Shown here: in pieces, positions 7,797-63,470 of the stretch
Position numbering within the stretch: the first letter of the stretch is position 1
Layout of the letters: the number at the start of each line of letters is the position of its first letter
Assembly (NCBI RefSeq): GCF_026151205.1
Contig: NC_087072.1
Location: 13,864,169-13,928,168 of the forward strand
Direction of reading: 5' to 3'
DNA length: 64,000 bases
Source of the DNA: Bolinopsis microptera
Taxonomy: Eukaryota; Ctenophora; Tentaculata; Lobata; Bolinopsidae
Made by a program: the position numbers and the translations under genes
The notes under the pieces: generated by a model
What the model was told of the DNA's origin: nothing
What the model saw: the letters and a program-made list of their open reading frames with translations, nothing else
The model's database searches: none

Positions 7797-8147
7797 CATT
7801 GCGTGGTTTCCAGCATTGACCAATAAAAACCGAGGACAATTGTCACGTGTCAAAACAAATTCGGTTCAAGCACCTCCACACCATTATCCAGATCTATAGC
7901 GCAGAAGGTTCAGGCGTTCGGGACGAATGACGCTTTCCCCTGCAACATTCAGACCCACTTAGTGCCTCCCTTTCCCGAGTTTATTCCGTCTGATTTATTT
8001 TCCTTGGAAACCACCACTATCCTTGATAAGCCTAAGGCTAAGGGCGGGGAACAGTTTGCTAAGATCCAAAGACTCAGATGGGGAGGTTTTTACTTTTAAT
8101 AATATAATGAAAGATATTTAGTCGATTTTCCACCACGACGAGGTGAT

Positions 8148-8218
8148 CCCTATATATATCATAATATTGATACAGAGGACATAATTTTTTTACCGTTTTA
8201 GGATGGAGAAATTCTAAA
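8148..8218 (+). promoter_or_regulatory. possible TATA-type promoter and 5' leader of the modular gene
   Basis: CTATATATAT occurs about 65 bp upstream of the first ATG (8219), a plausible distance for a short 5' leader. The window is AT-rich and such strings are common, so this is weak. Confidence 0.2.
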
Positions 8219-8324
8219 ATGAAGAAAAGTTTGACGTGTTTGGTCGTTATCTTAGCTTTCTCGCTTAAGATATGTGATGGTTCAGCAGATTGTGCAGTTG
8301 GTTCAAATGAAAATAATTGCCCAG
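8219..8324 (+). CDS. exon 1: signal peptide
   Basis: The frame starts MKKSLTCLVVILAFSLKICD: a basic start, a hydrophobic core of about 12 residues and a likely cleavage site near CDGSA. The exon ends NNCP plus one base before GTTGAG, giving phase 1. That is exactly what the first PAN exon at 12529 needs: the split codon becomes GAT and the join reads CP-D-WLQC. The exon is only 35 codons, which made it easy to miss. Confidence 0.75.
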
Positions 8325-11300
8325 GTTGAGTATTGATAAACTTACTTATAAACTTTACCCTAAAACGTAAAATTCTGAAATAACATCAATCGACTTACTC
8401 GACTTAGGGCGGCTTCAGCGTCCGAACAGAAATAGTCTTCTTCCAAATCTGTCTATCCAGCATAAGTTTGTTAATCTCTTTGCTGTCGTCAAGCCCCGTG
8501 TCCTTCCGAAGGATGTCAATGTATGTGAGATGTGGTCTTCCCCTTCGACGATGCCCTTGAAGGGGTTCCCAGAAGAGAAGTTGATGACTCAATAGCTCTT
8601 CATGTCTGGCTAAATGACCTGCGAGTCTCATCCTCCGTGCAGCTATCTTATCAGATGCTCTGATGAGGTGTCCATACACCTTGGCGTTAGTCTGCCGCTC
8701 TTTCCAGTTAATGTTCAGTGCCATCCTCAGCATTCTCGTATAACATCCATCAATACGTTTTGCGAGGGTCTGGCTGACAGTCCATGTTTCAGAGCCATAT
8801 AGAAGGATGGCCTCGACTGTAGCCAGGAACAGTCGTATCTTGAGATCTCTACGCATATCCGACTTCCATACAAGCTTCATCTGGTGACACGCTCCCCATG
8901 CCTTAGCTTTCCTCACTTCGAAGTCCTTCTCCGAACTCTTCATTCTACTACCCAAATATACGAAGTCATCGACTTTCTCAATGTTCTTCCCACTCCCAGC
9001 AACCAGAGTCGGGTTATCATCATCTCTTATGTTGATTCCCATGTACTTAGTTTTCCCCTCGTTGAGGTGGAGTCCAACTGAGTTGGCCGCCAGTTCTAGA
9101 CTCCTGAGGAAATCTTGTGCCTCCGCAACACTATCCGTTATAAGAGCAAGGTCGTCAGCAAAGTCCGCATCAGTGACCTTGACTGCCGGATAGCGACGGC
9201 TTCTTCTAGGGTGTAGAGTAAACCCAAAGTCCCTTCCCTCTAGGGACACCCTCATAATGTAGTCAATTACGATTATGAATAGGTAGGGCGCCAAAGTTTC
9301 TCCCTGCATCACTCCTGCTAGAATGAAGAATGCTTCACTCAGACCATCTTCGGTAATCACACGAGCAAATGTATCTGCATACATTATTTGTATCAAGCCT
9401 ACAATCTCCTTGGGAATTCCATATGCCAGGAGGATCTTCATGAGGAGTCCACGGTGCACGCTGTCGAAAGCCTTCTTGAAATCAATGAAGAGCATTAACG
9501 CGGTCAGATCTTTATCCCGGGCTCCCTCAAATACCCTTCTTAGGCCAAGAATATGTCTAGTTGTTGACCTACTCTCTCTGAATCCGTTCTGATTGATCCT
9601 TAAGATGTCTTCCATGGCAGGTTTTATCCTGTTCAGTAACATCTTATTGAGAGTCTTACTCACTATAGATGTCAGTGCAATACCTCTATAGTTATCTACT
9701 TTGGTCAAATTACCTTTCTTTGGAACAGGCACAATGTTTAGGTGCTTCCATTGGTCAGGAACATCGCCATCAACTAGTGCTTTATTGCAGAATTCAAGGA
9801 TCAAATCATCAACATCTACCCTCTTCAGTACTTCAGGGGCAACTCCATCCTCTCCAAATGCCTTACCTTCTTTGATCGATTTCGTAGCCTCCTCCAGTTC
9901 GGTCTTGGTGAACTTATCCACACTGATGTTTTGTGGTGGATGTACGACTGGTATGTCCACTTCTTCGTTTGGAACTACTGGAGGTTGTCCAAGTAGCTTG
10001 TTAAAGTGGTCTTTCCAGGCTCTCAATCTACCCTCTCTACTACCTCCTTCTACAAGACCACATGGCTTCTTCTTTCTCCCACTGACCTCATTAACAAGAT
10101 TCCAGCTCTCTTTGTTCTTGCATCTATCGGCTGCGTTTTCAGCTTTACTTATTTTCTGTTTAAGCAGCTCTTCCTCCACAGTACGGTAGCATGCAGAGAG
10201 AGTGTCTTTCTCCTCGGCAACTGTCTGTCTGTTGTCTTCACATGGATCCAGATGGTAGGTCTCCTTGGCAGCAAACAATTTGCTTCTGGCTTCCTCTACT
10301 CTTGGGTCGTTGGCAGGATCGTCATACCGCTTTTTAGGTTTATGCGGAAGATGCTTCCTATTTGCATACTTCACTGCTTCAATAAACTTTCCATACTTAG
10401 TGGTGACGTCATTAGTAGGACCTAGATCTAGTTGCTCCTCACTCAAGAGTGCACTATCCCTATTTCTAACTTCAACTCCATACTTGATCTGTAACTCTTG
10501 ATCAGTTTTGAGACGACTGAAGTCGTAACGTGTGACCCGTGGTGGACTTATGCTCTTTCGAAGACTGAGCTTTACAGTTGAGAGTACTGCCCGATGGTCA
10601 GAGCCCAGGGAATTGAAAGAGTTGCATGGCTCGGTGTTCTTTATTGAGCTCCTCCACTTCTTCCGTACCAGGACATAGTCAATCTGGCTCCTAGTGAGTA
10701 CTCCATCTGAGAGGTGAGTCCACTGCATACCAGGACTCTTCTGAAAACGATGATTCGTCGCCTCTAACTCTCCCTCCAGCAGTGTATCCCTGAGCAGATG
10801 ACCATTACGATTGGTCACTTGATGCCAGTACCATCCCGTATCTTCACCATTCAACTTGCTGAGGTGAGCATTAAGATCTCCTATTACAAGTAGTAGATGA
10901 TGAGAGGGGACCTCCCTTACTGCTGCTCTCAAGCAGTCGTGAAACTCTTCGGCTTCTTCGACAGTTGCGGATTCCGTTGGACTATACACAGAGATTATGG
11001 TTAATCTTGGGTTTCCGTCCAACGACACAAGCATGCAGCGCTTACTATAGGTCTTGATAAAACTAACTGCATTAAAGGCTTGTTTAGTCAGCAGGAATCC
11101 CACTCCTCCTGTAGACGCTTGTGATCTGTTTCTCCATGCTGAAGTTGTTATTAGGTGGACTCCCTTCTTGTGCCTCTCTATCTTGACTTCTTCATCATGC
11201 ACAACTCGGTGTTCTTGTATTGCAAGGACAGATATCTGACTGTGCAAGAAAAGAGTAACCATTTCAAGCCGTTTAGAAAATCCCTCACAGTACGGACATT

Positions 11301-14300
11301 AAGAGTCCCAATGATACTCTTCTTTGTACAACTAACTACTCCTCCACTATTTTTTTGTTTTTTGATGCTTTCTGTTGGCTTTCTAGGATTCATAAACACA
11401 TCATCAGCTGCCCGTCCACTATGTGGGTTTAGGACAACCGAGTCATAACTGTACTGATCCTCGATAGGCCTGGTAGGGCTTGAACCCTAGTGCTTTTGGT
11501 TGTAACCATATCTGTTTTTCAAAAGGCTAAGTGACCCAGTGAAGTCCCCTTCACTGTGGCAAATGGTCACTAATCCCAATGCCACGCCACCGGAACATTG
11601 GGGAAAACCGCAGGAACATTTTACCAACTCGAACTTGTAAACGTTAACCACATGAACATAACGTTTATCAGGCTGTATCACTAGCACTCAACTTTACTCT
11701 ACTCGATCTTCACCTGCTCCATGCAGGACTTAAGCTTATGACCTAAAGCGTAAGGGAGTTAGAGCGTGAAACAGAAATTTCCGCTTTGACGAGGGCTAAC
11801 TCTCCCTCTGACTACCGGTTACCCTGGCACAGGGAGCTGTATCCTATCTAACAGAGCGTGGTCCAGTCTGACTGGGTCGTAGTAGAATAGGTTTGGAGGG
11901 TAACAGCCTACACCTCTTTAACTACTGTGCAATCCACAGTAAAGATTTATGAGTCGCCGAGCCCCTTGTGAGCCAAGAGTTTAGGAGTCAATGACGTTTT
12001 GTGATTGAGCTCCTCGGGACTCATTGTTTCCCGTCGCCCTTCCTGTATTTAGCCTGGACACAGCCCAGTTTCCAGTCTTCACCACGTGGAGGTAGCAGGG
12101 GAGGACTTGATGTGGAGTGGCTATCATCATGTTGACTGATGATTAACTTGAAGGGGGCACCACAGGGATACCCCTTTTCAAAGTTCTGACAACCTCACGG
12201 CGGCACAGGGTTTCTATCCAGCAGTGAGCAGTGACACTTTGGGCCACCTAACCTTCACACAACCATTGGAAGACCAAATAACATCAATTACAGCTATTAT
12301 ATTTATAATAGTCCGATATTGCTCCCACCATTTCATAATACCAAATGCAATAAACGCAGGGGGTAAAAGTCAAAAGGGAGGTGGGGGGGGGGGAGAGGGG
12401 GGTGGGGGTGGGGGGTTAGAAGGCAATCAAAAATAAATTTAAAATACGAAATTTGTTCGTCTTTTTTTAACGTTCTTGAACCCTTAAATCTAAGAAAACT
12501 TAAGTTAATATTATTTAAAATATTTCAGATTGGCTGCAGTGCATGGAAAACGATACAGACTACCCCGGACAAGACTTATCAAGCGGACCCTCTACTGGAA
12601 TATACGATTGTTACAAGAAGTGCAAAGATCAGGCTGGTTGCCAAGCTTTTATGATGGTCTATGACAACACTCATATTTCGCACCAACCAGTAAACTATTG
12701 CTGGTTGAAGAGTCAGAAATATGGTAACGGAGCAACATCTTTCATCGGTCTAAAAGCAGGCAACATGGATTGTTTTATAGGTTCGTGCCGGGTGCCCATT
12801 TCCTTTGAAACCTGAAACAGAATACCAGTACCGATTACTGAATTAGGAAAATGTAAAACAACTTCTGTGCAACTTTGGATCATGCTCACAGCTACAAAAC
12901 TGATTTATCCTCACTTTACAAGTATAAGAGCACCTAAAAGTTGGGTTTTGGGCATGTTCAGGGTATTTGGCTAAATTGGGCCTAAATTGGGCCTAATTTG
13001 GACCAAATATGGGCGTGGCTGCACTGTTTGGCGGTTGAGGTCCGGGACTCCCTCAAAAATTACTTCAGTATGAAGAAAAAACATAACCACTACAAATTAA
13101 ATTGACCTTTCCCAAAGTTTAAAGAGTATTAGCGCAAAATAAAATCCGTTATTTTTGCTATATAAATATAACCAGTTTTTCAACTTAGAAATTGATGGAG
13201 GATTGAGTGCGTTTGGACAATGGTCAGCGTGCTCAACTTATTGTGGAGAAGGACAGCAGACCAGGGAAAGAATCTGTAATAACCCAGCCCCAGCTAATGG
13301 TGGTGCTGATTGTGAGGGAAGTTTGACAGAAACGCAAAATTGCAACTCCGCGGGTCCTTGTCCAGGTTCGTTAAGTAACCTATTATATATATAAATAATG
13401 TAATACGTTGGATAAGCAGTAAAGCATCACAATTTGGATAATATCTTCGTAGTTCTTTTACATTATAAGTCCTATAAAAATACATGTGTTAGTGTGTCGG
13501 TTAAACATTCTACAAATAGGGCACCTACTAGTTGGGTTTTGGGCATGTTCAGGGTATTTGGCTAAATTTGGCCTAATTTGGACCAAATATGGGCGTGGCT
13601 GCACCGTTTGGCGGTTGGGGTCCAGGACTCCCTCAAAAGTTCGATCACCGGTCCTAGTTTGTTCGTCAACTGCTATCTCGAAACCAAGTTTCACAAAAAA
13701 ATCAGGGTGAATCAGGGTTCATAATCTTTATTTTTTCGAAAATATCATTAATAGAACTATCTTATTTTACATAAAAATTTTTGTACACCTCTCCACATCC
13801 ATTAAAGCATTAAGTACTTTCAACTACAGAGGTCGAGAACATCGCAAGCAAAGGAATGGCAAAACAGACTGATACCATGAATAACTATAATGCTGAATTA
13901 GCTATTGATGGCGATAATAATGGCATCATGACAGAGTAAGAAACTTACTTAAAATAATTTGAATACATTAGTTTCTGAGAGGAAAGGAGTAAACAAAATT
14001 TATAACATTCTAAAATTTTTCAGCAAAAACGTTTCTATTCCTTTGTAGAAAACTTAAATATTGGTTAATTGGAACTTATCATTTTCAGCAATTCTTTAAC
14101 CCACACTCTAGCATCGGGTAGTAACGCCTGGTGGTCGCTGACATACCCTCGCTCAATGTATATCAAGGAAATCCAAATCTTTGGACGAACAGATTGTTGC
14201 GAGGACCGAATTGATGGTGCCTCTGTCTTAATTGATGGCACGGAAGTAGGAACATTAAACAGCAATGATGGACCCCCTATGGTTGTGCCGGTTAATAAAC

Positions 14301-17300
14301 CTGGCTCCGAGATAATGATCAGAAATAGAGAAGGTGGAGACGTGCAATCTCTTGCCGAAGTTCTGGTTTGTTCATTCAAATATTATTATTATCATATCCT
14401 CCAGATGATTGCTTTCCGATTTTTAATAACATGTTTCCGTTACCATTTCTCCATATTACTGATTACGTACTATAGATCAATCAACACTATTGTAACCACG
14501 CACCGGTCACATGAATTATACTAAGTCAGTAACCTGTAAAATCATAACATGTTAACATTGGCACGATCGTATCTCAACTAAGTAAAAATATTTCGAAATG
14601 CAGTTGACGAAGTGAACGTCTTCACTCAGTGTTGAAAAAAAAAATTTTTTGTCGACGTTTCGGCAACATGCTATTGTCATAGACAGGACGTAATAATAAC
14701 TTACATAGCTGCAAAATTACAATGTTAAAATAATCTATCAATACTACGAAATATTACAACAACAAGTAACATCGTAAAACCCATACAATCAACAAGAAAC
14801 AACGCGAATCAACCACGTACTCATCACATAAAATCCACATAACCCAAATACAACCAGCAAAATCACGAAGCAATGATCACAAACTTCAAAAGAAACATAT
14901 ATGGGCAATTCCACGATAACGGTAACCAGTAACAAAATAATAAAGTTTGGAGGTGGTTTGGGAGAGATAGAAAATCTTTAAGATATTTGACCATATTTTC
15001 AGGGGCAAAAAACCGTTTGTTGATATCTAGCCTAGTTTAAAAACTGTAGCGCGTCAAAGTTGGCTTAAATTTAGTGTATCTTTAATGTGAATATCCAGTT
15101 ATTTTCCGAAAGATTTTTGGGAGCTTTATTAATCGTAGAATTCAATATTTTATTCTGTTTATCAACCTAGTGGGCTTCAGATAGAAAGCCAGCCAAATTT
15201 TGAGGGCCAAATTTCTTTACTTTTTGAGTGTCTTATGATCAAATTTTTCCTCTTCGCGTGTGAATTACGCTACCAAATAGTGCAAAATGTTTTACTGTGG
15301 CTACACTATAAGTCTGTTTGATTCGAAACTCTCTCTCTAAAGGCAACTTTAGTCATCTATAAAGGTCAGAAAATTTCATTCGTTTTGTCACACTGGAAGT
15401 GCAAAAAGTAGGGGTAGTTTAATTCACAGGTAGCGTAATTCACAGCTTGGTAGTGTAATTCACACAGCGGAAAATTAATAAAACAAGTGGTTTAAAAGCT
15501 TTGTTGTGAAATATATTGTACTTTCAATACTTCCAGGGCAATTCCAGGGACCTATTTTCAACAACTGCCTGAAAGTGTTGGTAATTTTATCGAAATTAGG
15601 GTTCCGCCAGGGCAAAATGTGCCACTTTTAGACCTTAAATCGCAAAAATAATGATTTTTATATGGATTAGGACATCAAAATTGATTTTAAAGTGTTTTAT
15701 AGTCATTGTTAGGTCTGGGAACACTTATTTAAGTAATTCAAAGGCTTTTTTTTTTCAGAAAATATCAGCAATTTGGGGCTAAAATTACCTTATTTTCTTG
15801 TCACGTAACTAAATTTTGCTCAAAAGAGCAGTGTTTTTGCTCCAAAAAATTCTAATTTTTATCAAAAACCATGTATAGATGTATCAAATTATAGCTCTTG
15901 TTGACCTCTTCACATTAAAAACACAAAGAAGTAGTTTAGAATTGATAGAAGTGATAAAATGGCCTAAAAATGGATTCAAAAAGTTCTAAATTTCACCCAA
16001 TTTCTGTCTAATCATGAACCTTTGAGAGCTCATAAAAAAATCATGCCACAATATTACACTGTACATTTTTCTAGGATTACTCTAAATGTCCTATACTTAC
16101 AGATAGATCAACTTATAGATGCTTACCAAAGTTAATTTGCAACTTATTTTTGTAGTTTGTCCTAAAAAATGGTAAAAAATTGCCAAAAAATGCAATTTTT
16201 GACAAAAAATGGGGTAAAATTGATATTTGAGGTCAAATATCCATTTAATCACTCTAAAAACCTTTTTAAACGTTATTTTGGGGCAAGATATGTTTTGTGG
16301 TATATCATACCCCTTAGTCATGCCTATGTCTTATGTCTACCTCGCATGGGCGCCCGGACCACTGTGGTATGGCAGTAGGGTGTAATCTACACCATTACCA
16401 GTATCTAATTGGACCAATTAGTAGTCAATTTAATTTAAAATCAGTAATAGTCAGTCTACTTCACCATTTTACAATAGCAGCAACCAAATCAAGAACAAGC
16501 AAACATCAATACAACGCACAAACAGAGCAACTGGGCAGAGTGTGAGTAACACTACCTCCAAATGTGAATTACGTTTACTTCCTATATTGTCCCTGTACTA
16601 CACACATTCCACAAATTTATGTTAGGAAGGACATAGGAAGTTGAAAAACTGTGTACTTTATTGTGATCAAGCCTTACTGTAACTTCTGCTATTTATACAC
16701 TGGGGCACGAATTGCAATTTTAAGGCAAGATTTCTAAAACACCAAAATCTGCCTGTGAATTACGCCTACTTTATTAAATGCTGCTCACATAAAAAGTATA
16801 AGAGATAGACATTAAACTTTTGTTGCCACATCATCACAAACGTTTAAACTTCATTCTGACTTTATATTATCATGCTGCTAATGTTAGTCTACAATTAGCA
16901 TGCAATTAAAAGCTAAATTTTGTGCAAAGTGGGAATTACACTACGTGGAATTGCCCATATAACGGCTAAAAGAATCCACACCGCACCAAGCCGTGAACAA
17001 CACAATGAAATGTGAATTATTACTTCACACCTCACTATATTATTCCCAGCCCGGCACGCCGCAGCTCCATATACTTTATGATCTAGCGTCTACTTAGAAA
17101 TAATTTTACTTTTAAACAATAAAATGAATATTAAATTCAGTGACTTAGTGATTACCTAATTTCGTCTTCTATATAGCCAATAACCTGTTTTCAAGATATA
17201 TGTAATAGCAAATAATGCCCTTGGGCACGATGTTTTACTTGAGTCTAAATATTATAAACAATACTTTGCATCTAAACAGCATCAAATATATCTAATCGAG

Positions 17301-41300: not shown

Positions 41301-44300
41301 TTGGATTTTACAATTCGATTAAATCAAGTTTTGGTTGTGAAAAATACCTCTCTCTCTATCTTCAATATAACCAGTCAAAAAGACTAGCCCAAATAAGGAC
41401 TAGCTCTCACCGCCTAAAAATTTTTTTGATAGTTATTTGGCCTAAGGAACAACAGATAAGCCTATTGCCGCAATTATTGGATAATATTTTTGTTTTATGA
41501 ACCGGGCTAATGGACATGTCAGAAGAAACAACATCCTAAATCGTATCTGCCCTACATGTTCCACTAAGGACAAGAACACTCTGGAGTACATGGCAGAGTT
41601 ACCCTTTTTTGATCCCATAATTGAAGATGAGGTTCATGTGCTTAGAACCTGCCCTCTCTACCAAGACAACAGGGACCGCCTTAGCCCTGAAGCTAAAACC
41701 AACCTCTTCGAGGGAATGGATCTCATATTCACTCAACCAAAGCTTTAAAAGAGATTGCTAAATTTTTAATTGATATAGATGCACTTCGTTTCCCGAGAGA
41801 CTTAGCTTAAATTATAATATTTGTTTCTTCACGGTTTTCGTATCTTATTTCTATGTTATGATTTCACTCCTTTATTGTCAAGCCTGGAGTGTTAGGGCTT
41901 CTCTTGACCAATTAACGTTTAATCCGTTTAATCCGTTTAATCCGTTTAGTTAGGAAGGAATGTATACTTAAGAAGAAATTGCTTTGTTTTTCCCTTGTAG
42001 ATCAACTGCACGGGCAAAATTATTTAAATCAATAAGATAGTGATCATGCCATAATGTGATATTTACAATTTAGATCGTTAAAATTTTATAATAACTTGTT
42101 TCTGATTGTTTCTGATTGTTTCTGAATAGACTCAGTGAAGACAGATTCTAATGGAAAGAAATAGCTGAATATCGTATCGACATTTCTACGTCATACTCAT
42201 ATTCTGAAATAGTATTAATTAATAATTAACTGTGCAACCTCATCGAACAACAAGACCCTGACAAACTTATCAAACTAACTGTAGACTACCCTGACAATCA
42301 GAACGACTTTGTTCCCTTCCTCAACACGGAAATAAAGATCAACTCAGATGGAATAGTACATTCTAGACTCTATAGAAAACCACAGAAAAAGCCACTCACC
42401 CTCCACTACAACTCTCATCATAGTCATACAACACGTACAAAGAATGTTACTGTTGAGAGTATGTACAACAACGCAGAGGCAGTCTCTAACAACAGAGAAA
42501 ATGAGAAGTACTCTGAAAAGATGATAGATCAACTTCTCATTAACAACGGCTACACCGATAGAGTCTTAGACACCATAAAGAACAAAAGAAAACGTAGAAA
42601 GAGAATCAATCAGAACAAAGACCAAGACGGAGCGATTCTCAAACTACCTTATGTCAACGAAGCTACTAGTCGCAAATACAGAGATGCTGTCAGACATAGT
42701 GGACTCCCCATAAAAATTGTCGAGAAACCTGGACGGAAACTGAAGGATCTCCTTACAGACTCCAGACCCCTTGACAAGAAATCATGCACAACATCAAACT
42801 GCAGAACATGCGCAGCTTTAACCGATGGAGAATGCACCACAGCCAACACCGTCTACCACATCACCTGCGAAGTAGACAATTGCACCGAAAACTATGGTGG
42901 GGAAACATACAGACCAATCAAGTGCAGGTTCGACGAGCATTACCGTAGTGCGGCAAATCCAACAGCAAAATCTTACGAAGATAAGCCACTAGCAAAGCAC
43001 TACAGGGAAAGTCACCCTCAGCACACAGGCCCCCCAAAGCTAAGACTTCAAATCGTAGATAGAGGAACATCACTCATCAACAGAAAGATTAAAGAAGCCC
43101 GATTCTTAGTTGAAAAGAAACCAACACTCAACGACAAAACAGAGTTGAACAATTCAACACAGTTTTTAGTTGAGTGACGTGTAAATAGTAATATTTTCGT
43201 TTAAATTTCACTCCTCTGCTGTCCATTAATTTCTTTTATCTCTTTTAATATTTTATCTCCTGTACACGTCACGCTATTCGTTAATTTTCAGATGAGCCCT
43301 ATTTGATAAATTTTGTCAGTTTTTTGTTCATATTTGCTCTGATTTCGTTAAAAACTATTTTACAGTAGATAACTATTTTACAGTTATATTTTGTTTGAAA
43401 TTTCGTCGCCAAATTTTTACTGTACACATTGATCGTTATAAATATAATTGAATTAATACTATTTCAGAATATGAGTATGACGTAGAAATGTCGATACGAT
43501 ATTCAGCTATTTCTTTCCATTAGAATCTGTCTTCACTGAGTCTATTCAGAAACAATCAGAAATTTGAATAAAAGAACTTGTTTTCGTTGATTCAACAATA
43601 TAGTTTAGTCTAATGATAACTATTAAAATTGACTGAAATTAAAAGCTGTCATATTCTGGACAAAAAGTTCGAAATGGAAAAATTTTTGGAAAATATTCAA
43701 CGGACTTTAACTTGGACGGACATTAAATGTACGGACTTTATTTGAACGGAAATGAAGATGAGCGCTAGGGCCTCCAGCGTTCAAGTTATGCCCGTCCAAA
43801 TAAGGTCCGATAAGGTATGTACTATGTATATTGTATGACTTGGTACTTTTTTCAGATTCGTGCACGGCAATAACGGTAAATAAAGCTCAGATAACAGGTG
43901 CAACACAGCCAGCCAGTTCAGGACAAACAATAACTATCACCTGTAACAATGGTTACATTATAAGTGGAAACAGCGAGTTGACTTGTGACGGGACAGATTT
44001 TGGAACTTTGCCAACATGTCAGATCCAACAGTGTGCTACTGTGACAGTAGAACATGCGCTGATAACTCCATCTCAACCGGTTAACTTTGATATCACCATC
44101 ACTATCACCTGTAACAATGGATACAGTCTGAGTAGTGGGAATGGTGAGTTGACTTGTGATGGGACGGATTTTGGAACTTTGCCAACATGTCAGATCCAAC
44201 AGTGTGCTACTGTGACAGTAGAACATGCGCTGATAACTCCATCTCAACCGGTTAACTTTGATATCACCATCACTATCACCTGTAACAATGGATACAGTCT

Positions 44301-46182
44301 GAGTAGTGGGAATGGTGAGTTGACTTGTGACGGGACGGATTTTGGAACTTTGCCAACATGTCAGATCCAACAGTGTGCTACTGTGACAGTAGAACATGCG
44401 CTGATAACTCCATCTCAACCGGTTAACTTTGATATCACCATCACTATCACCTGTAACAATGGATACAGTCTGAGTAGTGGGAATGGTGAGTTGACTTGTG
44501 ACGGGACGGATTTTGGAACTTTGCCAACATGTCAGATCCAACAGTGTGCTACTGTGACAGTAGAACATGCGCTGATAACTCCATCTCAACCGGTTAACTT
44601 TGATATCACCATCACTATCACCTGTAACAATGGATACAGTCTGAGTAGTGGGAATGGTGAGTTGACTTGTGATGGGACGGATTTTGGAACTTTGCCAACA
44701 TGTCAGATCCAACAGTGTGCTACTGTGACAGTAGAACATGCGCTGATAACTCCATCTCAACCGGTTAACTTTGATATCACCATCACTATCACCTGTAACA
44801 ATGGATACAGTCTGAGTAGTGGGAATGGTGAGTTGACTTGTGACGGGACGGATTTTGGAACTTTGCCAACATGTCAGATCCAACAGTGTGCTACTGTGAC
44901 AGTAGAACATGCGCTGATAACTCCATCTCAACCGGTTAACTTTGATATCACCATCACTATCACCTGTAACAATGGATACAGTCTGAGTAGTGGGAATGGT
45001 GAGTTGACTTGTGACGGGACGGATTTTGGAACTTTGCCAACATGTCAGATCCAACAGTGTGCTACTGTGACAGTAGAACATGCGCTGATAACTCCATCTC
45101 AACCGGTTAACTTTGATATCACCATCACTATCACCTGTAACAATGGATACAGTCTGAGTAGTGGGAATGGTGAGTTGACTTGTGATGGGACGGATTTTGG
45201 AACTTTGCCAACATGTCAGATCCAACAGTGTGCTACTGTGACAGTAGAACATGCGCTGATAACTCCATCTCAACCGGTTAACTTTGATATCACCATCACT
45301 ATCACCTGTAACAATGGATACAGTCTGAGTAGTGGGAATGGTGAGTTGACTTGTGATGGGACGGATTTTGGAACTTTGCCAACATGTCAGATCCAACAGT
45401 GTGCTACTGTGACAGTAGAACATGCGCTGATAACTCCATCTCAACCGGTTAACTTTGATATCACCATCACTATCACCTGTAACAATGGATACAGTCTGAG
45501 TAGTGGGAATGGTGAGTTGACTTGTGACGGGACGGATTTTGGAACTTTGCCAACATGTCAGATCCAACAGTGTTCCCCTATCACTGTGGATAACGGAGCG
45601 ATAACCCCAAGCCAGCCGGTTAATCACGGGGTTACAATCACAGTTACTTGCAACAACGGCAACGTGATAAACGGGGATTCCGAGCTGATTTGCCAAGGTG
45701 GCATATTTAACGTGGATACCCCGACCTGTACGTGTCCAGGAGGGAGCTACTACACGGAGGAGGGGTGTAAAACTTGTCCCACTTCCCACTGGATGGCCGG
45801 AGGGGACAATGCTGACAGCGGGACCAAAGGTCAGTTTCAACCACCCTACCTTCTCATCACACTCAACTCTTCCATTCAAGTCAACCCTAATGCCCTTATC
45901 GACATTGATATAATTGAATTAAATGGAAAAAGGATCACTTCACAATTTAAAAATATTCGCAATGAAAGATTATTTGGCAATAACATTTTATAATGCGTCC
46001 ACAGAGGAGTCCTGCTATTAACATGTTGTATTTCAGGTTGTAATACGTGTCCAGGTGTAAAGACGTCTAGCGAAGGATCCACCAGTGAGTCAGACTGTCA
46101 CTACAACACCTGCTCTTGTAAGATGATAGAGACAGGGAGTGTGGGAGCTGGTAAATTCAAAACATCTTGCGCTTGTTCGTAG
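8219..46182 (+). CDS. modular secreted protein: (PAN-TSP1-F-lectin)x4, PAN, 11 sushi, GCC2/GCC3-like tail
   Basis: Reconstructed join: 8219-8324, 12529-12780, 13189-13365, 13830-13935, 14089-14365, 17315-17339, 17546-17797, 18135-18314, 22434-22539, 22693-22969, 23866-23890, 24132-24380, 24722-24901, 29013-29118, 29270-29546, 30436-30460, 30699-30947, 31308-31481, 31848-31953, 32108-32384, 34165-34189, 34396-34650, 43856-45829, 46037-46182. Every junction is GT-AG, all phases agree, and the total is 5826 nt (1941 aa plus stop). There is a signal peptide but no membrane segment, so the product is probably secreted. PAN, TSP1, F-type lectin and sushi modules bind proteins or glycans, so a role in adhesion, self/non-self recognition or humoral defence is inferred, not shown. 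Transcripts could skip cassettes, because each is phase 1-1. No named orthologue is recognised. Confidence 0.8.
8404..11262 (-). CDS. LINE endonuclease-reverse transcriptase (952 aa, N-terminus frameshifted)
   Basis: Domains in order: AP-type endonuclease, residues ~1-240 (LAIQEHRVVH, GGVGFLLTKQAF, VIGDLNAH, SQIDYVLVRKKW, GSDHRAV); a charged linker with VNEVSGRKKKP; reverse transcriptase, ~440-740 (WKHLNIVPVPKKG, NYRGIALTS, FIDFKKAFDSVHR, GVMQGETLAPYL, FADDLALITD as the catalytic box); and a C-terminal region with YLGSRMKSSEKDF, LLYGSETWTVS and GHRRRGRPHLTYID. It would nick target DNA and copy the element RNA at the nick. Catalytic motifs look intact. The first ~40 residues of the endonuclease are in another frame, so this copy is probably recently dead. 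Confidence 0.8.
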   Translation of the reverse strand: MVTLFLHSQISVLAIQEHRVVHDEEVKIERHKKGVHLITTSAWRNRSQASTGGVGFLLTKQAFNAVSFIKTYSKRCMLVSLDGNPRLTIISVYSPTESATVEEAEEFHDCLRAAVREVPSHHLLLVIGDLNAHLSKLNGEDTGWYWHQVTNRNGHLLRDTLLEGELEATNHRFQKSPGMQWTHLSDGVLTRSQIDYVLVRKKWRSSIKNTEPCNSFNSLGSDHRAVLSTVKLSLRKSISPPRVTRYDFSRLKTDQELQIKYGVEVRNRDSALLSEEQLDLGPTNDVTTKYGKFIEAVKYANRKHLPHKPKKRYDDPANDPRVEEARSKLFAAKETYHLDPCEDNRQTVAEEKDTLSACYRTVEEELLKQKISKAENAADRCKNKESWNLVNEVSGRKKKPCGLVEGGSREGRLRAWKDHFNKLLGQPPVVPNEEVDIPVVHPPQNISVDKFTKTELEEATKSIKEGKAFGEDGVAPEVLKRVDVDDLILEFCNKALVDGDVPDQWKHLNIVPVPKKGNLTKVDNYRGIALTSIVSKTLNKMLLNRIKPAMEDILRINQNGFRESRSTTRHILGLRRVFEGARDKDLTALMLFIDFKKAFDSVHRGLLMKILLAYGIPKEIVGLIQIMYADTFARVITEDGLSEAFFILAGVMQGETLAPYLFIIVIDYIMRVSLEGRDFGFTLHPRRSRRYPAVKVTDADFADDLALITDSVAEAQDFLRSLELAANSVGLHLNEGKTKYMGINIRDDDNPTLVAGSGKNIEKVDDFVYLGSRMKSSEKDFEVRKAKAWGACHQMKLVWKSDMRRDLKIRLFLATVEAILLYGSETWTVSQTLAKRIDGCYTRMLRMALNINWKERQTNAKVYGHLIRASDKIAARRMRLAGHLARHEELLSHQLLFWEPLQGHRRRGRPHLTYIDILRKDTGLDDSKEINKLMLDRQIWKKTISVRTLKPP
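8404..11480 (-). mobile_element. RTE-like LINE inserted antisense in intron 1 of the modular gene
   Basis: A near-complete endonuclease-reverse transcriptase reads opposite to the host gene. The main frame (8404-11262) is intact for 952 codons. The endonuclease start lies in another frame (VSCTKKSIIGTLNVRTVRD, about 11275-11400), so a one-base indel near 11275 breaks the ORF; across the break the protein continues as SKRLEMVTLFLHSQ. The frame upstream is open to about 11480. The 3' end is short and runs out near 8340. The clade is given as RTE-like because of its similarity to endonuclease-RT proteins often annotated as craniofacial development protein 2-like, so the exact clade is unsure. 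Confidence 0.8.
11481..12528. other. rest of intron 1: no gene, G-rich tract
   Basis: No exon is recognised. 11481-12200 may be the 5' region of the LINE. 12379-12417 is almost pure G on the plus strand, with several runs of four or more (quadruplex potential), and sits where the other cassettes carry the GGACGGACAT repeat. 12421-12528 resembles the DNA before the other PAN exons and ends in the acceptor TATTTCAG. Confidence 0.5.
12529..12780 (+). CDS. cassette 1, PAN/apple exon
   Basis: Phase 1-1, 252 nt. It has six cysteines in the PAN/apple order: WLQC, DCYKKC, GCQAF, YCWLKSQ, GNMDC. It is nearly identical to the cassette 2 copy; visible protein differences are IYD for IDD and FIG for FLG. 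PAN modules bind proteins or carbohydrates outside the cell. The donor is ATAG|GTTCGT. Confidence 0.75.
13189..13365 (+). CDS. cassette 1, thrombospondin type 1 exon
   Basis: Phase 1-1, 177 nt (59 codons). It shows GQWSACSTYCGEGQQTRER, then CNNPAPANGG and six cysteines, the standard TSP1 repeat with a short WxxC core. It shares the EGQQ form with cassette 4, while cassettes 2 and 3 have EREQ and an extra Asn. Confidence 0.8.
13830..14365 (+). CDS. cassette 1, F-type lectin (two exons, 13830-13935 and 14089-14365)
   Basis: The first exon (106 nt, phase 1 to 2) gives NIASKGMAKQTDTMNNYNAE and LAIDGDNNG. The second (277 nt, phase 2 to 0) gives NAWWSLTYPRSMYIKEIQIF, then RTDCCEDR and ends AEVL. 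This is the fucolectin/tachylectin-4/pentraxin-1 type of F5/8C fold. The RxDxxxxR part of the fucose-binding motif is kept, with a histidine 28 residues before it. Protein identical to cassette 2. Confidence 0.8.
14366..17314. other. intron between lectin and linker exons of cassette 1
   Basis: It is about 2 kb longer than the matching intron of cassette 2 because of the insertion at 14902-16957. Before that lies a Penelope-like motif (GTCGACGTTTCGGC at 14651), shared by all four cassettes. No exon is seen. Confidence 0.6.
14902..16957. mobile_element. 2056-bp TA-flanked DNA element, non-coding
   Basis: The element is absent from the same intron in cassettes 2, 3 and 4, which gives exact borders. 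It begins TGGGCAATTCCACG and ends with the reverse complement CGTGGAATTGCCCA. The empty site implies a TA duplication, as for Tc1/mariner-type elements. GTGAATTACG-like motifs recur inside on both strands (near 15258, 15420-15470, 16563, 16751 and 16930). No transposase frame is visible, so it is non-autonomous. Confidence 0.75.
17315..17339 (+). CDS. cassette 1, 25-nt linker exon
   Basis: A micro-exon of phase 0 to 1 between CCCAG and GTAAGT, encoding VMGAETGK. It completes the lectin domain (AEVL-VMGAE) and restores phase 1 for the next PAN exon. It is present in all four cassettes. Confidence 0.7.
17362..17470 (+). repeat. GGACGGACAT repeat copy before PAN exon 2
   Basis: It begins CTTTATCGGACCTTATTTGG, has spaced GGACGGACAT and GAACGGACAT motifs, and ends near CCATCAAAAATCC. 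Copies also lie at about 23939-24045, 30508-30615 and 34213-34320, each just before the next PAN exon, so the repeat was present before the cassettes duplicated. Confidence 0.6.
17546..17797 (+). CDS. cassette 2, PAN/apple exon
   Basis: Phase 1-1, 252 nt. It has the same six-cysteine PAN pattern as cassette 1 and nearly the same protein (HISHQPVNYCW is shared by these two only). This indicates a recent duplication or gene conversion between cassettes 1 and 2. Confidence 0.75.
18135..18314 (+). CDS. cassette 2, thrombospondin type 1 exon
   Basis: Phase 1-1, 180 nt. It has the CSTNYCGEREQ form with one extra residue, and its protein is identical to cassette 3 (24722-24901). The donor is CCAG|GTTCGT. 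Confidence 0.8.
19030..19847 (+). pseudogene. Penelope copy 1, N-terminal region, split by MITE
   Basis: Codons before the MITE (KSLKKHYISKIEFYRSQ...) and after it (NEDIPAGALALLGKGLGYIP, LRLDMKLVTNKI) correspond to one continuous frame in copy 2 (25570-26019). LGKGLGYIPTP is typical of the region before the Penelope RT domain. The frame ends at SKTKQ-stop, while homology continues in another frame (NEQAVNTAVDTMRREL). The same break is present in copy 2. Confidence 0.65.
19148..19507. mobile_element. 360-bp hAT-like MITE, GC-rich ends
   Basis: The termini are CAGACGTGGGCGCCGCCG and its reverse complement, CAG...CTG as in hAT elements. The 8-bp target duplication ACTGACAC is at 19140-19147 and 19508-19515, and the empty site is preserved in the sister Penelope copy at 25680. 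The inner ends consist of CGCCGCCGCCGAT-type repeats, unlike the AT-rich surroundings. No coding frame is seen. Confidence 0.85.
19867..21202 (+). pseudogene. Penelope copy 1, reverse transcriptase with frameshift
   Basis: Two frames (19867-20433 and 20594-21202) cover the RT: ADKGGASLIIDP, PYFYPAFKIHKM, PRARLI, then KRGVPTGGSICVQLANI, RYIDDGCGVF (catalytic YIDD at about 20873-20884), FLDIKF and DLYVKETDARSYL. Against copy 2 it has a 7-bp insertion near 20400 (GCACTCAGCAGACG) that shifts the frame. The catalytic box is intact here, unlike in copy 2. Confidence 0.7.
22434..22969 (+). CDS. cassette 2, F-type lectin (exons 22434-22539 and 22693-22969)
   Basis: The lengths (106 and 277 nt) and phases match cassette 1, and the protein appears identical, including VNKPGSE. 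RTDCCEDR is kept. The exons lie 4.1 kb from their TSP1 exon because of the Penelope-like insertion. Confidence 0.8.
23866..23890 (+). CDS. cassette 2, 25-nt linker exon
   Basis: A phase 0 to 1 micro-exon encoding VMGAETGK, between CCCAG and GTAAGT. Identical to cassettes 1 and 3. Confidence 0.7.
24132..24380 (+). CDS. cassette 3, PAN/apple exon
   Basis: Phase 1-1, 249 nt. The six-cysteine PAN pattern is kept, but the middle loop differs from cassettes 1 and 2: DDSAFSGTLNYCW replaces DNTHISHQPVNYCW. It is very close to the cassette 4 copy. Confidence 0.75.
24722..24901 (+). CDS. cassette 3, thrombospondin type 1 exon
   Basis: Phase 1-1, 180 nt, protein identical to the cassette 2 exon (TNYCGEREQ). 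Flanking intron DNA is also nearly identical to cassette 2, marking the edge of a recent duplication. Confidence 0.8.
25305..28140 (+). mobile_element. Penelope-like element copy 2, in the TSP1-lectin intron of cassette 3
   Basis: It occupies the same intron position as copy 1 and is nearly identical outside private changes. It lacks the MITE, has lost most of the 3' part of the GIY-YIG region (a deletion after 28068), and carries a stop at the catalytic site. The frame break near 26013 is shared with copy 1, so both come from one insertion that was copied with the cassette. Confidence 0.75.
25570..27360 (+). pseudogene. Penelope copy 2, N-terminal region and reverse transcriptase
   Basis: Frames 25570-26019, 26039-26350, 26374-27033 and 27166-27360 together cover the N-terminal region and RT. 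Defects: the shared shift near 26013, a shift near 26323 (CACTGCAGGTACAG against CACTGGGTACAG), and TAA at 27031-27033 exactly at the tyrosine of the YIDD box (TAC in copy 1). Homology continues past the stop (IDDGCGVFHG). The RT reads PFYP-like PYFYPAFKIHK, GVPTGGSICV and FLDIKFCF. Confidence 0.7.
28146..28855. mobile_element. ~710-bp insertion private to cassette 3
   Basis: Copy 1 reads ...CCTCAGAACT directly into GTGTATTACTAC (22275), whereas here about 710 bp intervene. It starts with two tandem copies of TCAATGAAACAAGAAATTT-like sequence and ends near AGGGCGTGGTTTATT. No coding frame, clear terminal repeat or target duplication was found, so the class is unknown. Confidence 0.5.
29013..29546 (+). 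CDS. cassette 3, F-type lectin (exons 29013-29118 and 29270-29546)
   Basis: The exon sizes and phases are those of the other cassettes. Visible differences: GMANQTD for GMAKQTD, VNKAGSE for VNKPGSE, and GGDAQ for GGDVQ. The RTDCCEDR sugar-site motif is intact. Confidence 0.8.
30436..30460 (+). CDS. cassette 3, 25-nt linker exon
   Basis: A phase 0 to 1 micro-exon encoding VMGAETGK with acceptor CCCAG and donor GTAAGT. Confidence 0.7.
30699..30947 (+). CDS. cassette 4, PAN/apple exon
   Basis: Phase 1-1, 249 nt. It shows DTDTDYPGHDL, DDSAFSGTLNYCW and YGTGAQTVTGLKAGNMDC. It is closest to cassette 3 (EHDL and AGAET there). Confidence 0.75.
31308..31481 (+). CDS. cassette 4, thrombospondin type 1 exon
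   Basis: Phase 1-1, 174 nt, the shortest TSP1 copy (NCNSGPCP lacks two residues). GVLSVCSTYC replaces GQWSACSTYC, so the conserved tryptophan of the WxxC core is lost in this cassette. All six cysteines remain. Confidence 0.8.
31848..32384 (+). CDS. cassette 4, F-type lectin (exons 31848-31953 and 32108-32384)
   Basis: The same two-exon lectin structure, with VNKAGSE as in cassette 3 and GGEVQ at the end. The first exon reads VKNIASK. RTDCCEDR is intact. No retroelement lies in the preceding intron, so this intron shows an empty site for the Penelope insertion. Confidence 0.8.
33175..34063. mobile_element. ~890-bp insertion with a perfect 68-bp-arm palindrome, private to cassette 4
   Basis: In the other cassettes AATAGCAAAT runs directly into AATGCCCTTGG; here about 890 bp intervene. 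Its first part is a foldback: arms 33253-33320 and 33352-33419 are perfect reverse complements around a 31-bp loop, inside shorter outer arms (TTTGACCA at 33176, TGGTCAAA at 33423). A diverged relative lies at 2440-2630. The rest (33432-34063) has no recognisable content. Confidence 0.65.
34165..34189 (+). CDS. cassette 4, 25-nt linker exon
   Basis: A phase 0 to 1 micro-exon encoding VMGAETRN, a variant of the GK ending in the other cassettes. The donor is TT|GTAAGT. Confidence 0.7.
34396..34650 (+). CDS. fifth PAN/apple exon
   Basis: Phase 1-1, 255 nt. It shows WLQCMDNDTDYPGQDLSSG, the DDSVFSGTLNYCW loop and ASPKKGLTAGNMDCLNLI, the longest and most diverged PAN copy. No TSP1 or lectin exons follow, so its donor joins the sushi exon 9.2 kb away. 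A phase 1 end and phase 1 start make this join legal. Confidence 0.7.
35240..35919 (-). pseudogene. CR1-like LINE, C-terminal RT part in shifted frames
   Basis: Frame 35575-35919 gives MRFHPAKCKVLVVSGK, LGVDITPKLSW, MVRRNGHIVI and LSLFRGQFENCS, the thumb region after the catalytic site. Frame 35240-35452 continues with MNDLIFFHKVLNNLIPVSLP and RLRRCH, the usual C-terminus of CR1/L2-type proteins. Both belong to the protein that begins in the EN-RT ORF at 38331 and are separated from it by frameshifts and two stops near 35950-36000. Confidence 0.7.
36016..38331 (-). CDS. CR1-like LINE endonuclease-reverse transcriptase (771 aa, ends at broken YADD)
   Basis: The N-terminus has a hydrophobic segment of unclear meaning. 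The endonuclease follows from about residue 80: LSVLYQNVQGL, IIALNETWL, NGGGVLLAVRSDL, NIGDFNLPHTDW and SDHFPVTF. The RT starts near 540: NKAQGPDGIHG, NVVPIFKKGKKSEVQNYRPI, HGFLEHKSC, FDFAKAFDSVNHDILLHKL and SGVPQGSILGPLLFVLFIND. The frame ends LYAECR-stop: a 7-bp tandem repeat (GAATGCC, near 36025) sits between TATGCC and GATGAT and destroys LYADD. The element is antisense to the host gene. Confidence 0.8.
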   Translation of the reverse strand: MTAHVIYLIPFLACSHIKLFFVIISSWFIRNVLLPGKMIKVKYSSRLRRLVSLFILWVFSLNFLLITLDNPSMLNLGPNSLSVLYQNVQGLIPFSNLSSSHPILDGNTISELQSFANIEQPDIIALNETWLKKSISSNEIFPSSQYEIFRNDRTRKTHPQDPNNPKKFRENGGGVLLAVRSDLDATTTRLPVSLGAEMLAVKIAFPNKESIVICTSYRVETLGLPNHDVIVSYIRKLVSKKNPPKIYNIGDFNLPHTDWLSSSSTVSIEQSFIDSFSDLSLSQLITSPTHKSGNTLDILLSNYDNTIDNLNVCDPHSVCKSDHFPVTFSIKSSFSRKKTPKRKIYNFKRANWDMINRELCSINWQVLECLDPVSSWKLVKECTMNLVDIHIPKVTIKSEFQPPWFDSELFSSCRKKDRLRAKFKISGSISDELKFVTSCKDFKRFSSAKIRDSLFNSDDPALITKKFWSHVKYQSNSCRIPNCVSYSGQLRFKPKDQAELFNSFFYNQFSDPSLYDTDISYVNDVDFDIDFDHRDVRKLLSNINSNKAQGPDGIHGKILKNCSVGLAYPLTCIFRGSYNSGYIPQKWKLANVVPIFKKGKKSEVQNYRPISLTCLVMKVYERIVKRKLLSLTSTLLDPMQHGFLEHKSCTTNMVDFCDSLALSLNENIINHVVYFDFAKAFDSVNHDILLHKLKTLYNIDGTLLKFLTNYLQGRYQRLRVVIGNEMSSTLSVNSGVPQGSILGPLLFVLFINDIPLGLSDDTDIVLYAECR
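38332..38768. other. spacer between LINE ORFs
   Basis: The minus strand shows only short frames here. It corresponds to the inter-ORF region of the LINE, and no domain is recognised. Confidence 0.5.
38769..39425 (-). CDS. LINE ORF1-type SGNH hydrolase (218 aa)
   Basis: The three key SGNH blocks are present: LFGTSMTK (serine at residue 32), SVGTND (glycine 89, asparagine 91) and DWLHLN (aspartate 183, histidine 186). All catalytic residues look intact. Esterase domains of this type are established in ORF1 of CR1-clade LINEs, where their role is unresolved (RNP or lipid/membrane association has been suggested). The frame is open upstream of the first ATG and overlaps the end of the AlkB-like ORF (FRCQIPKTDTNVVREQ), so the two may once have been one polyprotein or a frameshifted pair. 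Confidence 0.75.
   Translation of the reverse strand: MPPTTTSTPTLYYLNAQRKPKSRKTTVLFGTSMTKFVRTNKLGFRGRKVINVSQSGAKIRDITEYIQHFHKTHAAAEADDIEKVILSVGTNDIKHSKYGVQFLRKYLNDLIDSTKQLFPAAIISIQCCLPIKCLYSYIAKNVLDFDNLLKDLCLIKNNCVFLDCFSDFLTRDFRSCNELLYHDWLHLNMRGVGLLSTWLKFVVNEHSSDRVVNNLLGI
39458..40160 (-). CDS. LINE-borne AlkB-like 2-oxoglutarate/Fe(II) dioxygenase
   Basis: The longest frame is 39458-40045 (195 aa). The likely real start is ATG at 40160 (MDLNSVTNVLNSFSLNELKA), joined through a one-base shift near 40105 to KLKRDSVKCEEFLELHSDFV. After an N-terminal helical region, an AlkB-type core runs from about residue 85: LASMYKSGSCATRYHNDDEV gives the HxD iron ligands (H102, D104), then VVSISFGAESTLDI and SLYIMKPGCQ, with an arginine at 177 in TRYYGIAYPF. 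AlkB enzymes oxidatively remove alkyl groups from nucleic acids. The second iron histidine, expected five residues after Q160, is arginine here (R165, codon CGC at 39551-39553), so this copy is probably inactive. The family call rests on motif spacing only. Confidence 0.6.
40252..40497 (-). pseudogene. pogo/DDE_1-type transposase fragment (81 aa)
   Basis: The frame shows CFIENIIVPYVNDEK, LLGLPEAQTTFLVYDVFRSH and ALNNIVHELVPANS. The VYDVF block fits the second catalytic aspartate of DDE_1 transposases, and the VPANxxDR context is usual downstream. The rest of the transposase is missing. A more decayed copy of the same piece is at 3166-3270. Confidence 0.65.
40510..41990 (+). mobile_element. 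5'-truncated LINE, 3' part
   Basis: Three frames (40518-40772, 40769-41500 and 41497-41748) form the end of a LINE protein with shifts between them: CLEWGLSVNISKT and MVFNRAG (RT palm end), YTYLGITF, ASYGCQIW (thumb), and a C-terminal zinc-knuckle-like CPTC...EVHVLRTCPLY. The tail at 41927-41950 is a short tandem run of AATCCGTTT, typical of LINE 3' ends. The clade is not assigned, and it differs from the two other LINEs in the window. Confidence 0.7.
42109..42220 (+). repeat. left arm of 112-bp inverted repeat
   Basis: The reverse complement of 43451-43562. The arm ends at AGTATTAATT, immediately before the truncated coding frame. Confidence 0.85.
42230..43177 (+). pseudogene. Penelope-like RT C-terminus plus GIY-YIG endonuclease
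   Basis: The frame is open from 42230, well upstream of the first ATG (42461). The start, DFVPFLNTEIKINSDGIVHS then RLYRKPQKKPLTL, is the end of a Penelope RT. Next come a basic KRKRRKRINQ patch, a CTTSNCRTC zinc-like motif and a GIY-YIG domain (VYHITCEVDNC, YGGETYRPIKCRFDEH, AKHYRESHP). There is no in-frame stop, so the truncation is the only defect seen. Confidence 0.75.
43451..43562 (-). repeat. right arm of 112-bp inverted repeat
   Basis: An inverted copy of 42109-42220. It lies about 270 bp past the stop codon of the Penelope frame, in its 3' untranslated end. Confidence 0.85.
43686..43822. repeat. inverted GGACGGACAT repeat before the sushi exon
   Basis: The left part has GGACGGACAT and TGAACGGAAAT. 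The right part ends GTCCAAATAAGGTCCGATAA, the reverse complement of the start of the copies at 3753 and 17362. This is the only copy with both ends present, so the family is probably a MITE whose other copies are one-sided. Confidence 0.55.
43856..45829 (+). CDS. sushi exon: 11 sushi (CCP) domains
   Basis: One exon of 1974 nt, phase 1-1, between TTTTTCAG and GTCAGT. The first domain (CTAITVNKAQITG) and the eleventh (CSPITVDNGAITPSQP) are diverged. Domains 2-10 repeat the same 57 residues (CATVTVEHALITPSQPVNFD..., ITITCNNGYSLSSG, TCDGTDFGTLPTC). The exon then begins a GCC2/GCC3-like cysteine domain (CPGGSYYTEEGCKTCP). Sushi domains bind proteins, as in complement regulators and selectins. The last visible linker is GGDNADSGTK. 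Confidence 0.8.
44031..45569 (+). repeat. nine tandem 171-bp sushi repeats
   Basis: The period is 171 bp (57 codons). By eye the nine units differ only at one silent site, GAT or GAC, at 44160 plus multiples of 171. The order is T C C T C C T T C. Confidence 0.9.
46037..46182 (+). CDS. last exon: cysteine-rich C-terminus
   Basis: The acceptor is TATTTCAG, entered in phase 1. It encodes CNTCPGVKTSSEGSTSESDC, completing the GCC2/GCC3-like domain, then CSCKMIETGSVGAGKF and ends SCACS before TAG. No transmembrane segment or GPI-type hydrophobic tail is present, supporting secretion. Confidence 0.7.
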
Positions 46183-63469: not shown

Positions 63470-63470
63470 T

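Follow-up and report, generated by a model that had tools for sequence, protein, structure and literature searches.

A 64,000-nucleotide stretch of the genome of the ctenophore Bolinopsis microptera (contig NC_087072.1; hereafter the window) is likely to contain one intact-looking gene for a secreted recognition or adhesion protein that, judging from its sequence, would bind fucose in a multivalent manner. The encoded chain combines four cassettes of PAN, TSP1 and F-type lectin domains with a sushi array, and its first exon, its micro-exons and its introns retain traces of how it was assembled. Of four glutamate-receptor ORFs from the same genome compared with the PDB, L014 matches the solved Mnemiopsis leidyi receptor ML032222a (9.1e-121), L013 and L016 give no hit at 1e-85, and the 60 of 387 hits listed for L011 include no entry named as ctenophore. 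Searches of the genome for COX1 and GFP gave no match, with controls responding in 8 of 14 cases for COX1 and in none for GFP, so that the GFP result carries no information.

Gene model and domain order

Rebuilt exon by exon from the window, the gene model extends over positions 8219-46182 of the forward strand and comprises 24 exons, which yield 5826 nt with the stop codon and a protein of 1941 amino acids (Table 1). In order, the predicted protein consists of a signal peptide, a vestigial half of an LDLa domain, four repeats of PAN, TSP1 and F-type lectin, a fifth PAN domain (PAN5), eleven sushi modules and a cysteine-rich tail, so that F-type lectin and CCP (sushi) modules occur together in one in-phase predicted gene model. 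Beyond the signal, no transmembrane-like stretch was found (highest 19-residue mean 1.08).

The single frame with consistent phases that the first-pass annotation had proposed was reproduced: all 23 introns are bounded by GT and AG, internal stops are absent and every exon phase agrees with its neighbors. Exon borders were placed by motif, and because the cassettes are tandem copies, the 23 junctions reduce to eight independent types, all eight of which agree in phase. Eight junction types in phase, combined with paralogue support for exon 1 and the micro-exon, indicate that the agreement of the exon model is better than chance. Overall, support for one secreted mosaic gene is good between exon 1 and PAN5 and fairly good for its continuation into the sushi exon.

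A Pfam scan of cassette 1 and of a shortened protein running from PAN5 through the sushi modules to the tail placed TSP_1 (3.8e-13) and Sushi (2.4e-12) above the cut-off, as it did the lectin and PAN5 (see below), whereas PAN1 fell slightly below it.

Table 1 Features of the gene and its surroundings, given as positions of the window
Feature	Position	Strand	Basis
Shared 5' module (promoter region, 5' leader, signal-peptide half of exon 1)	7780..8275	+	paralogue DNA identity
Exon 1 (signal peptide fused to LDLa 3' half, phase 1 out)	8219..8324	+	model and paralogue DNA
Non-LTR retrotransposon (RVT_1, endonuclease), intron 1	8378..12288	-	13-nt duplication at both ends
PAN1 exon	12529..12780	+	model, Pfam
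TSP1 domain exon, cassette 1	13189..13365	+	model, Pfam
F-type lectin exon a, cassette 1	13830..13935	+	model, PDB match
F-type lectin exon b, cassette 1	14089..14365	+	model, PDB match
25-nt micro-exon 1 (last lectin strand VMG and linker)	17315..17339	+	model, paralogues
PAN2 exon	17546..17797	+	model
TSP1 domain exon, cassette 2	18135..18314	+	model
Reverse-transcriptase element, cassette 2 TSP1-lectin intron (ends approximate)	18764..21913	+	ORF scan, self-comparison
F-type lectin exon a, cassette 2	22434..22539	+	model
F-type lectin exon b, cassette 2	22693..22969	+	model
25-nt micro-exon 2	23866..23890	+	model
PAN3 exon	24132..24380	+	model
TSP1 domain exon, cassette 3	24722..24901	+	model
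Second reverse-transcriptase element copy, cassette 3 TSP1-lectin intron (ends approximate)	25304..28069	+	self-comparison
F-type lectin exon a, cassette 3	29013..29118	+	model
F-type lectin exon b, cassette 3	29270..29546	+	model
25-nt micro-exon 3	30436..30460	+	model
PAN4 exon	30699..30947	+	model
TSP1 domain exon, cassette 4	31308..31481	+	model
F-type lectin exon a, cassette 4	31848..31953	+	model
F-type lectin exon b, cassette 4	32108..32384	+	model
25-nt micro-exon 4 (differs from micro-exons 1-3 at 3 positions)	34165..34189	+	model
PAN5 exon	34396..34650	+	model, Pfam
Sushi exon (array of 11 modules, beginning of Cys-rich tail)	43856..45829	+	model, Pfam, Cys count
Last exon (Cys-rich tail and stop)	46037..46182	+	model, L001 homology

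Origin of exon 1

Exon 1 had been described as a 35-codon signal exon. The exon itself is upheld by paralogues, but its nature is different: by homology, it is a fusion of a signal-peptide exon with the 3' half of an LDLa exon. The shared 5' module is 90.2% identical to a segment at C9:12.967 Mb (L021, 722-1220) and 84–85% identical to three copies at C1:23.44 Mb (L024). A genome peptide search with exon 1 matched residues 1-23 at four other loci (87% at C9:12.967 Mb, 78–83% at the three at C1:23.44 Mb), and residues 17-35 matched several further loci. The second homology covers positions 8273-8387, where the sequence shares 92–94% identity with LDLa exons of loci L022, L023 and L025, from their 3' half through the donor into the next intron; the exon in L022 is a Pfam LDLa domain (4.4e-9). 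Within exon 1 the promoter-signal and LDLa homologies share an overlap of three bases, and TSP1 exons lie downstream of the LDLa donor, on the same strand, in all three loci read (L022, L023 and L025). Given its homology to the C9 and C1 signal modules on one side and to LDLa exons on the other, exon 1 therefore takes a putative signal-peptide start with its upstream region, plus a predicted phase-1 donor of the kind that precedes TSP1 exons. This fused origin is the strongest support for exon 1 at the sequence level.

The related loci have architectures of their own. Tandem arrays of discoidin-like (identified by eye), LDLa and TSP1 exons occur in L021, L022, L023 and L025, although the one discoidin-like copy scanned gave no Pfam match. 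The C9 array sits behind the same promoter-signal module as the window gene, and at C1:23.44 Mb the three module copies lie amid sushi exons.

F-type lectin domains and the micro-exon

Matches to known structures and conserved motifs identify the cassette lectin as a true F-type lectin, for which fucose binding is predicted. It matches striped-bass FBP32 (6.5e-16), the fucolectin-related 2j22 (1.5e-8) and eel agglutinin 1k12 (1.3e-7) in the PDB, and F5_F8_type_C_2 in Pfam (28.6 bits; cut-off 27.8). All four cassettes carry the fucose motif THT ... RTDCCEDR (family pattern His ... RxDx4(R/K)) and the calcium motif AIDGD (family pattern h2DGx); both motifs of F-type lectins are described in the consulted part of PMC5712786. 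When aligned to 1k12, with residues counted by hand, THT coincides with His52, RTDCCEDR with Arg79-Arg86 and AIDG with the calcium motif. The glycan-recognition or adhesion role suggested in the first-pass annotation is thus backed by the fucose triad and the calcium motif in each of the four lectins, with binding itself a prediction.

Relative to the family members AAA (1k12) and FBP32 (3cqo), the window lectin has the same domain and the same fucose triad of H, R and R with RxDCCxxR and AIDG. It differs in one extra residue between His and Arg, in having no Cys at the Cys50 position, in the placement of its last strand on a separate micro-exon and in its setting within PAN-TSP1 cassettes. 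The His-Arg spacing is 27 in the window lectin and 26 in AAA by our own count, corresponding to one inserted residue; the consulted part of PMC5712786 prints it as 24. Cys50 of 1k12 is aligned to Leu and its partner Cys146 seems absent, as no Cys precedes AEV (judged by eye, the alignment ending short of Cys146). By this comparison the Cys50-Cys146 disulfide, which is common in the family but not defining for it, is missing.

All four 25-nt micro-exons previously reported were found again (Table 1). The micro-exon codes for VMG, which completes the last lectin strand, and a linker, and is therefore needed for the domain. Its counterpart in the paralogues at C1:14.106 Mb (L003) and C10:0.131 Mb (L005) opens with the same acceptor and GTGATGGGGGCT and, in both loci read, continues into a second F-type lectin, while in the window the exon is ended after 25 nt by a GTAAGT donor. 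From this comparison the short form appears to be derived, a newly arisen splice donor having shortened the exon. Another 25-nt candidate (17177, 23728, 30298 and 33139), likewise conserved and compatible in phase, was dropped because it supplies no VMG, and it is also disfavored by L003 and L005, which start the exon like the chosen one. Visual inspection of cassette 1 also suggested an in-phase 21-nt alternative between the two lectin exons, which was dropped as well, since direct joining gives a normal lectin.

Upstream of the lectin paralogues lies a common Cys-containing ORF (ILCTGFPTKIAGC...; L003 5923-6102, L005 4997-5182, L007 4069-4269). Near the C10 paralogue there is also a long integrase/reverse-transcriptase-like ORF, recognized by eye, of an LTR-type element (L007 5206-7998, reverse strand).

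The sushi exon and its connection to PAN5

The frame of the sushi exon contains 47 cysteines, 44 of which are assigned to eleven modules of four, confirming the number of sushi modules counted earlier. Differences among the eight middle repeats are silent only (16 silent and 0 changing, summed over pairs). The 171-bp repeats are near-identical across most of the array (43963-45630), and copy number may vary between animals. A 666-amino-acid open frame runs antisense to the array (43918-45918, reverse strand) and is probably a by-product of the repeat. The naming of the tail as GCC2/GCC3-like was not sustained: the cysteine-rich tail has no accepted Pfam match, with Ephrin_rec_like at 13.2 bits (cut-off 23.1). 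Tandem matches to the tail with about 43% identity occur at C8:9343625-9352348 and C8:18134796-18137095. A closer relative is the sushi-tail paralogue at C2:16.005 Mb (L001), to which positions 45731-46177 are 94.4% identical; upstream of it lies a papain-like peptidase exon, identified by eye (L001 6710-6928, reverse strand).

Whether the sushi exon belongs to the same gene as the cassettes depends on one intron of 9.2 kb, across which we consider it quite probable that the join to PAN5 holds. The two exons are on the same strand and would be joined from phase 1 to phase 1 at a good acceptor. An analogous arrangement exists at the sister locus at C1:4.71 Mb (L010), where, downstream of a related PAN exon (about 55% identical, below the Pfam cut-off) and on one strand with it, come a weak TNFR-like exon, one sushi exon, two Ephrin_rec_like exons and three more sushi exons; both Ephrin_rec_like exons and all but one of the four sushi exons score above the Pfam cut-off. 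Of the nine exons scanned for splice sites at this locus, five have a phase-1 acceptor candidate (PAN, three sushi and one Ephrin_rec_like) and the other four have no convincing one. The basis for the join is thus phase, strand and analogy with this locus, rather than homology.

The alternative is a pair of adjacent genes, one with PAN, TSP1 and lectin domains whose end would follow PAN5, the other a sushi-tail gene with its own first exon within the 9.2 kb. Cassette homology does stop at 34689, and within the intron there are a non-LTR element and numerous poly(A)-signal words (16 AATAAA or ATTAAA, compared with 3 in the 1.3 kb past the stop). In addition, no PAN match was found in the 19.8 kb read at the C2 sushi-tail paralogue, which is mildly against the join. 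Two genes nevertheless seem unlikely, considering the matching phase and strand, the good acceptor and the PAN and sushi exons sharing one strand at C1:4.71 Mb; moreover, an unsystematic look revealed no terminal exon downstream of PAN5 and no signal-peptide exon ahead of the sushi exon. Of six ORFs scanned in the intron, three gave no Pfam match, one belongs to a non-LTR element and the remaining two encode GDSL or 2OG-oxygenase domains. The GDSL-lipase and 2OG-Fe(II) oxygenase (AlkB-like) ORFs (38769-40105, reverse strand) lie next to the non-LTR ORF and are probably transposon accessory domains.

Cassette duplication and transposable elements

The cassette segments, exons and introns together, are 85–99% alike. 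The non-LTR element in intron 1 has a copy of a 13-base duplication at each end (8378-8390 and 12276-12288); intron homology resumes at 12276, and the intron is uninterrupted by such an element in L022 and L023. In their TSP1-lectin introns, cassettes 2 and 3 share a reverse-transcriptase element, 96.6% identical over 2.4 kb, and for this reason the element was probably copied together with the cassette. Elsewhere in the window, exact direct duplications of 409 bp and 258 bp, 100% identical, are present at 52141-52866 and 63470-63988.

Such similarity might also be expected of a decaying or artefactual array, that is, recent duplicates or an assembly error without a product. Cassettes 1 and 2 have only 4 differences in 676 intron positions of the lectin region and cassettes 2 and 3 only 1 in 262 in the TSP1 region, the sushi repeats are near-identical and transposons occupy several introns. 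However, all 24 exons are open, and the other segment pairs are 3–9% apart in introns but about 1% in lectin exons, which makes decay or artefact very improbable. The lower divergence of the lectin exons relative to introns (4/383 vs. 26/682 differences between cassettes 1 and 4, p 0.011; 4/383 vs. 21/679 between cassettes 1 and 3, p 0.036) argues for a working product. This constraint is not general, as differences in the TSP1 exons are about equal to those in introns and PAN1 and PAN3 diverge more within the exon than in its flanks (see below).

Divergence of lectins and PAN domains between loci

Lectins were compared in five pairs drawn from cassettes 1 and 4 of the window (w1 and w4), L003 and L005. 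Amino-acid-changing differences exceeded silent ones in rate between w1 and L005 (45 changing vs. 5 silent, dN/dS 2.73, Fisher p 0.016) and between w4 and L005 (p 0.011), with p values of 0.066 for w1-L003, 0.13 for w4-L003 and 0.18 for L003-L005; the pairs share branches and are not independent. In the columns of the AAA loops CDR1, CDR2 and CDR4, changes affect 12 of 24 positions in L005, compared with 16 of 107 elsewhere (p 0.0005), and 9 of 24 in L003, compared with 14 of 107 (p 0.008), the loop limits having been set after the differences were seen. Between the window and L003 and L005, the intron separating the lectin exons differs by 0.059 and 0.072, near dS (0.054 and 0.060). By contrast, divergence reaches 0.13 and 0.17, the level of dN, in the 70 bases that follow exon b, and 0.12 and 0.39 in the 60 bases preceding exon a, so that the neutral yardstick is uncertain. 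Taken together, the lectin sequences suggest, at a marginal level, that changes between loci are mostly amino-acid-changing and clustered in the glycan-specificity loops.

Positive selection is known in oyster bindin, and the lectins of the window gene could similarly serve gamete or self/non-self recognition and diversify under such selection. The excess of dN over dS in both comparisons with L005 and the clustering of changes in the three loops would be expected in this case. Nonetheless, we regard this role as quite unlikely: three of the five lectin pairs do not go below p 0.066, the pairs share branches, the loop limits are post hoc and intron stretches adjoining exon b have diverged to the level of dN. 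Furthermore, there was no significant excess of amino-acid-changing sites in either TSP1 (8 pairs) or PAN (10 pairs).

Among the PAN domains, PAN5 passes the PAN_4 threshold of Pfam (27.9 bits; cut-off 27) and PAN1, the other copy scanned, lies slightly below it (26.0); a fold prediction from the five window copies is of very low confidence (pLDDT 44). Exon differences exceed those of the flanks between PAN1 and PAN3 (35/249 vs. 21/254, p 0.047), but the direction is opposite between PAN1 and PAN2 (2/252 vs. 17/260) and neither direction holds between PAN3 and PAN4. Two pairs with PAN5 also differ less in the exon than in the flanks, because homology ends just after PAN5. In the tandem PAN genes at C3:1.99-2.00 Mb (L008 and L009), PAN exons differ at 40 of 249 positions, compared with 22 of 587 in the following intron bins. 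Since silent sites are raised too (dS 0.21), this divergence suggests gene conversion from divergent donors, which fits better than selection.

Proposed role and relation to known proteins

Modules of the PAN, TSP1 and sushi types commonly serve as protein-binding spacers, a function that they may also have here. Four fucose sites on one secreted chain would bind fucosylated glycans multivalently and provide avidity for fucosylated surfaces, and the protein might accordingly work extracellularly, much like an agglutinin, in the recognition of mucus, microbes or prey or in adhesion to them. A complement-like role, as initially proposed, finds no support beyond the sushi modules: Pfam matched no protease or thioester domain in cassette 1 or the shortened PAN5-to-tail protein. 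Mucosal defence, tentacle adhesion and gamete recognition are candidate settings, among which the present data choose none.

Tentacle adhesion in its specific form would make the protein part of the glue secreted by colloblasts, used for prey capture rather than for recognition of microbes. Colloblast candidates of Mnemiopsis leidyi are enriched for sushi/SCR, vWD, MACPF and lectin terms, and TSP1 is among four domains common to the colloblast, tentacle and ToxProt sets, according to the consulted part of PMC6278862. The domains of this protein are, however, common in many kinds of secreted proteins, and a place in the glue is a possibility that we would take seriously while thinking it the less probable case. 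The preferred reading stays the more general one of a multivalent fucose-binding recognition or adhesion factor.

Mosaics of F-type lectin and sushi modules are known from sea urchin SpCRL, Drosophila furrowed and CG9095 and a Nematostella protein (PMC5712786, consulted part), and the likeness to the predicted window gene would lie in the combination of an F-type lectin with complement-control (sushi) modules. Unlike this type, the window gene is without C-type lectin (CTLD) or FIMAC domains, neither of which Pfam matched in cassette 1 or in the shortened PAN5-to-tail protein, and without a transmembrane-like stretch; PAN and TSP1 alternate with the lectin, and the host is a ctenophore. Oyster sperm bindin likewise has repeated F-type lectin domains, with variable isoforms, but the consulted part of PMC5712786 does not mention PAN, TSP1 or sushi for it. 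Mega-TSPs and sushi-TSPs of the thrombospondin superfamily have TSP1 or sushi modules in common with the window gene, and mega-TSPs are given as the only TSP-related proteins in ctenophores (PMC6526912, consulted part); no thrombospondin C-terminal region was matched by Pfam in cassette 1 and the shortened PAN5-to-tail protein.

Rhamnospondin pairs TSP1 with a lectin. The cnidarian TSR repertoire to which it belongs resembles the window gene in that an early-branching phylum has many TSP1-repeat proteins with new architectures (PMC5446238, consulted part), although lectin family and phylum are different here; sushi, F-type and fucolectin are absent from the main text of that paper. The literature searched, mostly outside subscription journals, contained no protein with the domain order of the window gene and nothing on a ctenophore F-type lectin; a single paper, on apicomplexans, combined three of the terms F-type lectin, PAN domain, thrombospondin and sushi. 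The order therefore stands as previously unreported in that literature, with the qualification that its pairing of F-type lectin and sushi has precedents.

The gene belongs to a within-genome family put together by shuffling of phase-1 exons. A more far-reaching scenario, which we consider rather improbable, is that a portable promoter and signal-peptide module, present at five loci, was joined to differing phase-1 exon arrays (discoidin-like/LDLa/TSP1, sushi, or PAN-TSP1-F-lectin), once inside an LDLa exon, and that this gave rise to a fast-changing fucose-recognition family of this ctenophore's own with its specificity loops under selection. If true, this fucose-recognition family would follow a logic similar to that of the immune or allorecognition repertoires of invertebrates. 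The construction of a modular extracellular gene can be read unusually clearly from the locus: a fused first exon, a micro-exon that appears trimmed, cassettes duplicated along with a transposon and lectin loops that seemingly change faster than the rest. Should the product bind fucose as predicted, it would provide a concrete test of glycan recognition in a lineage that arose early among animals, whether the role is an immune, an adhesive or a gametic one.
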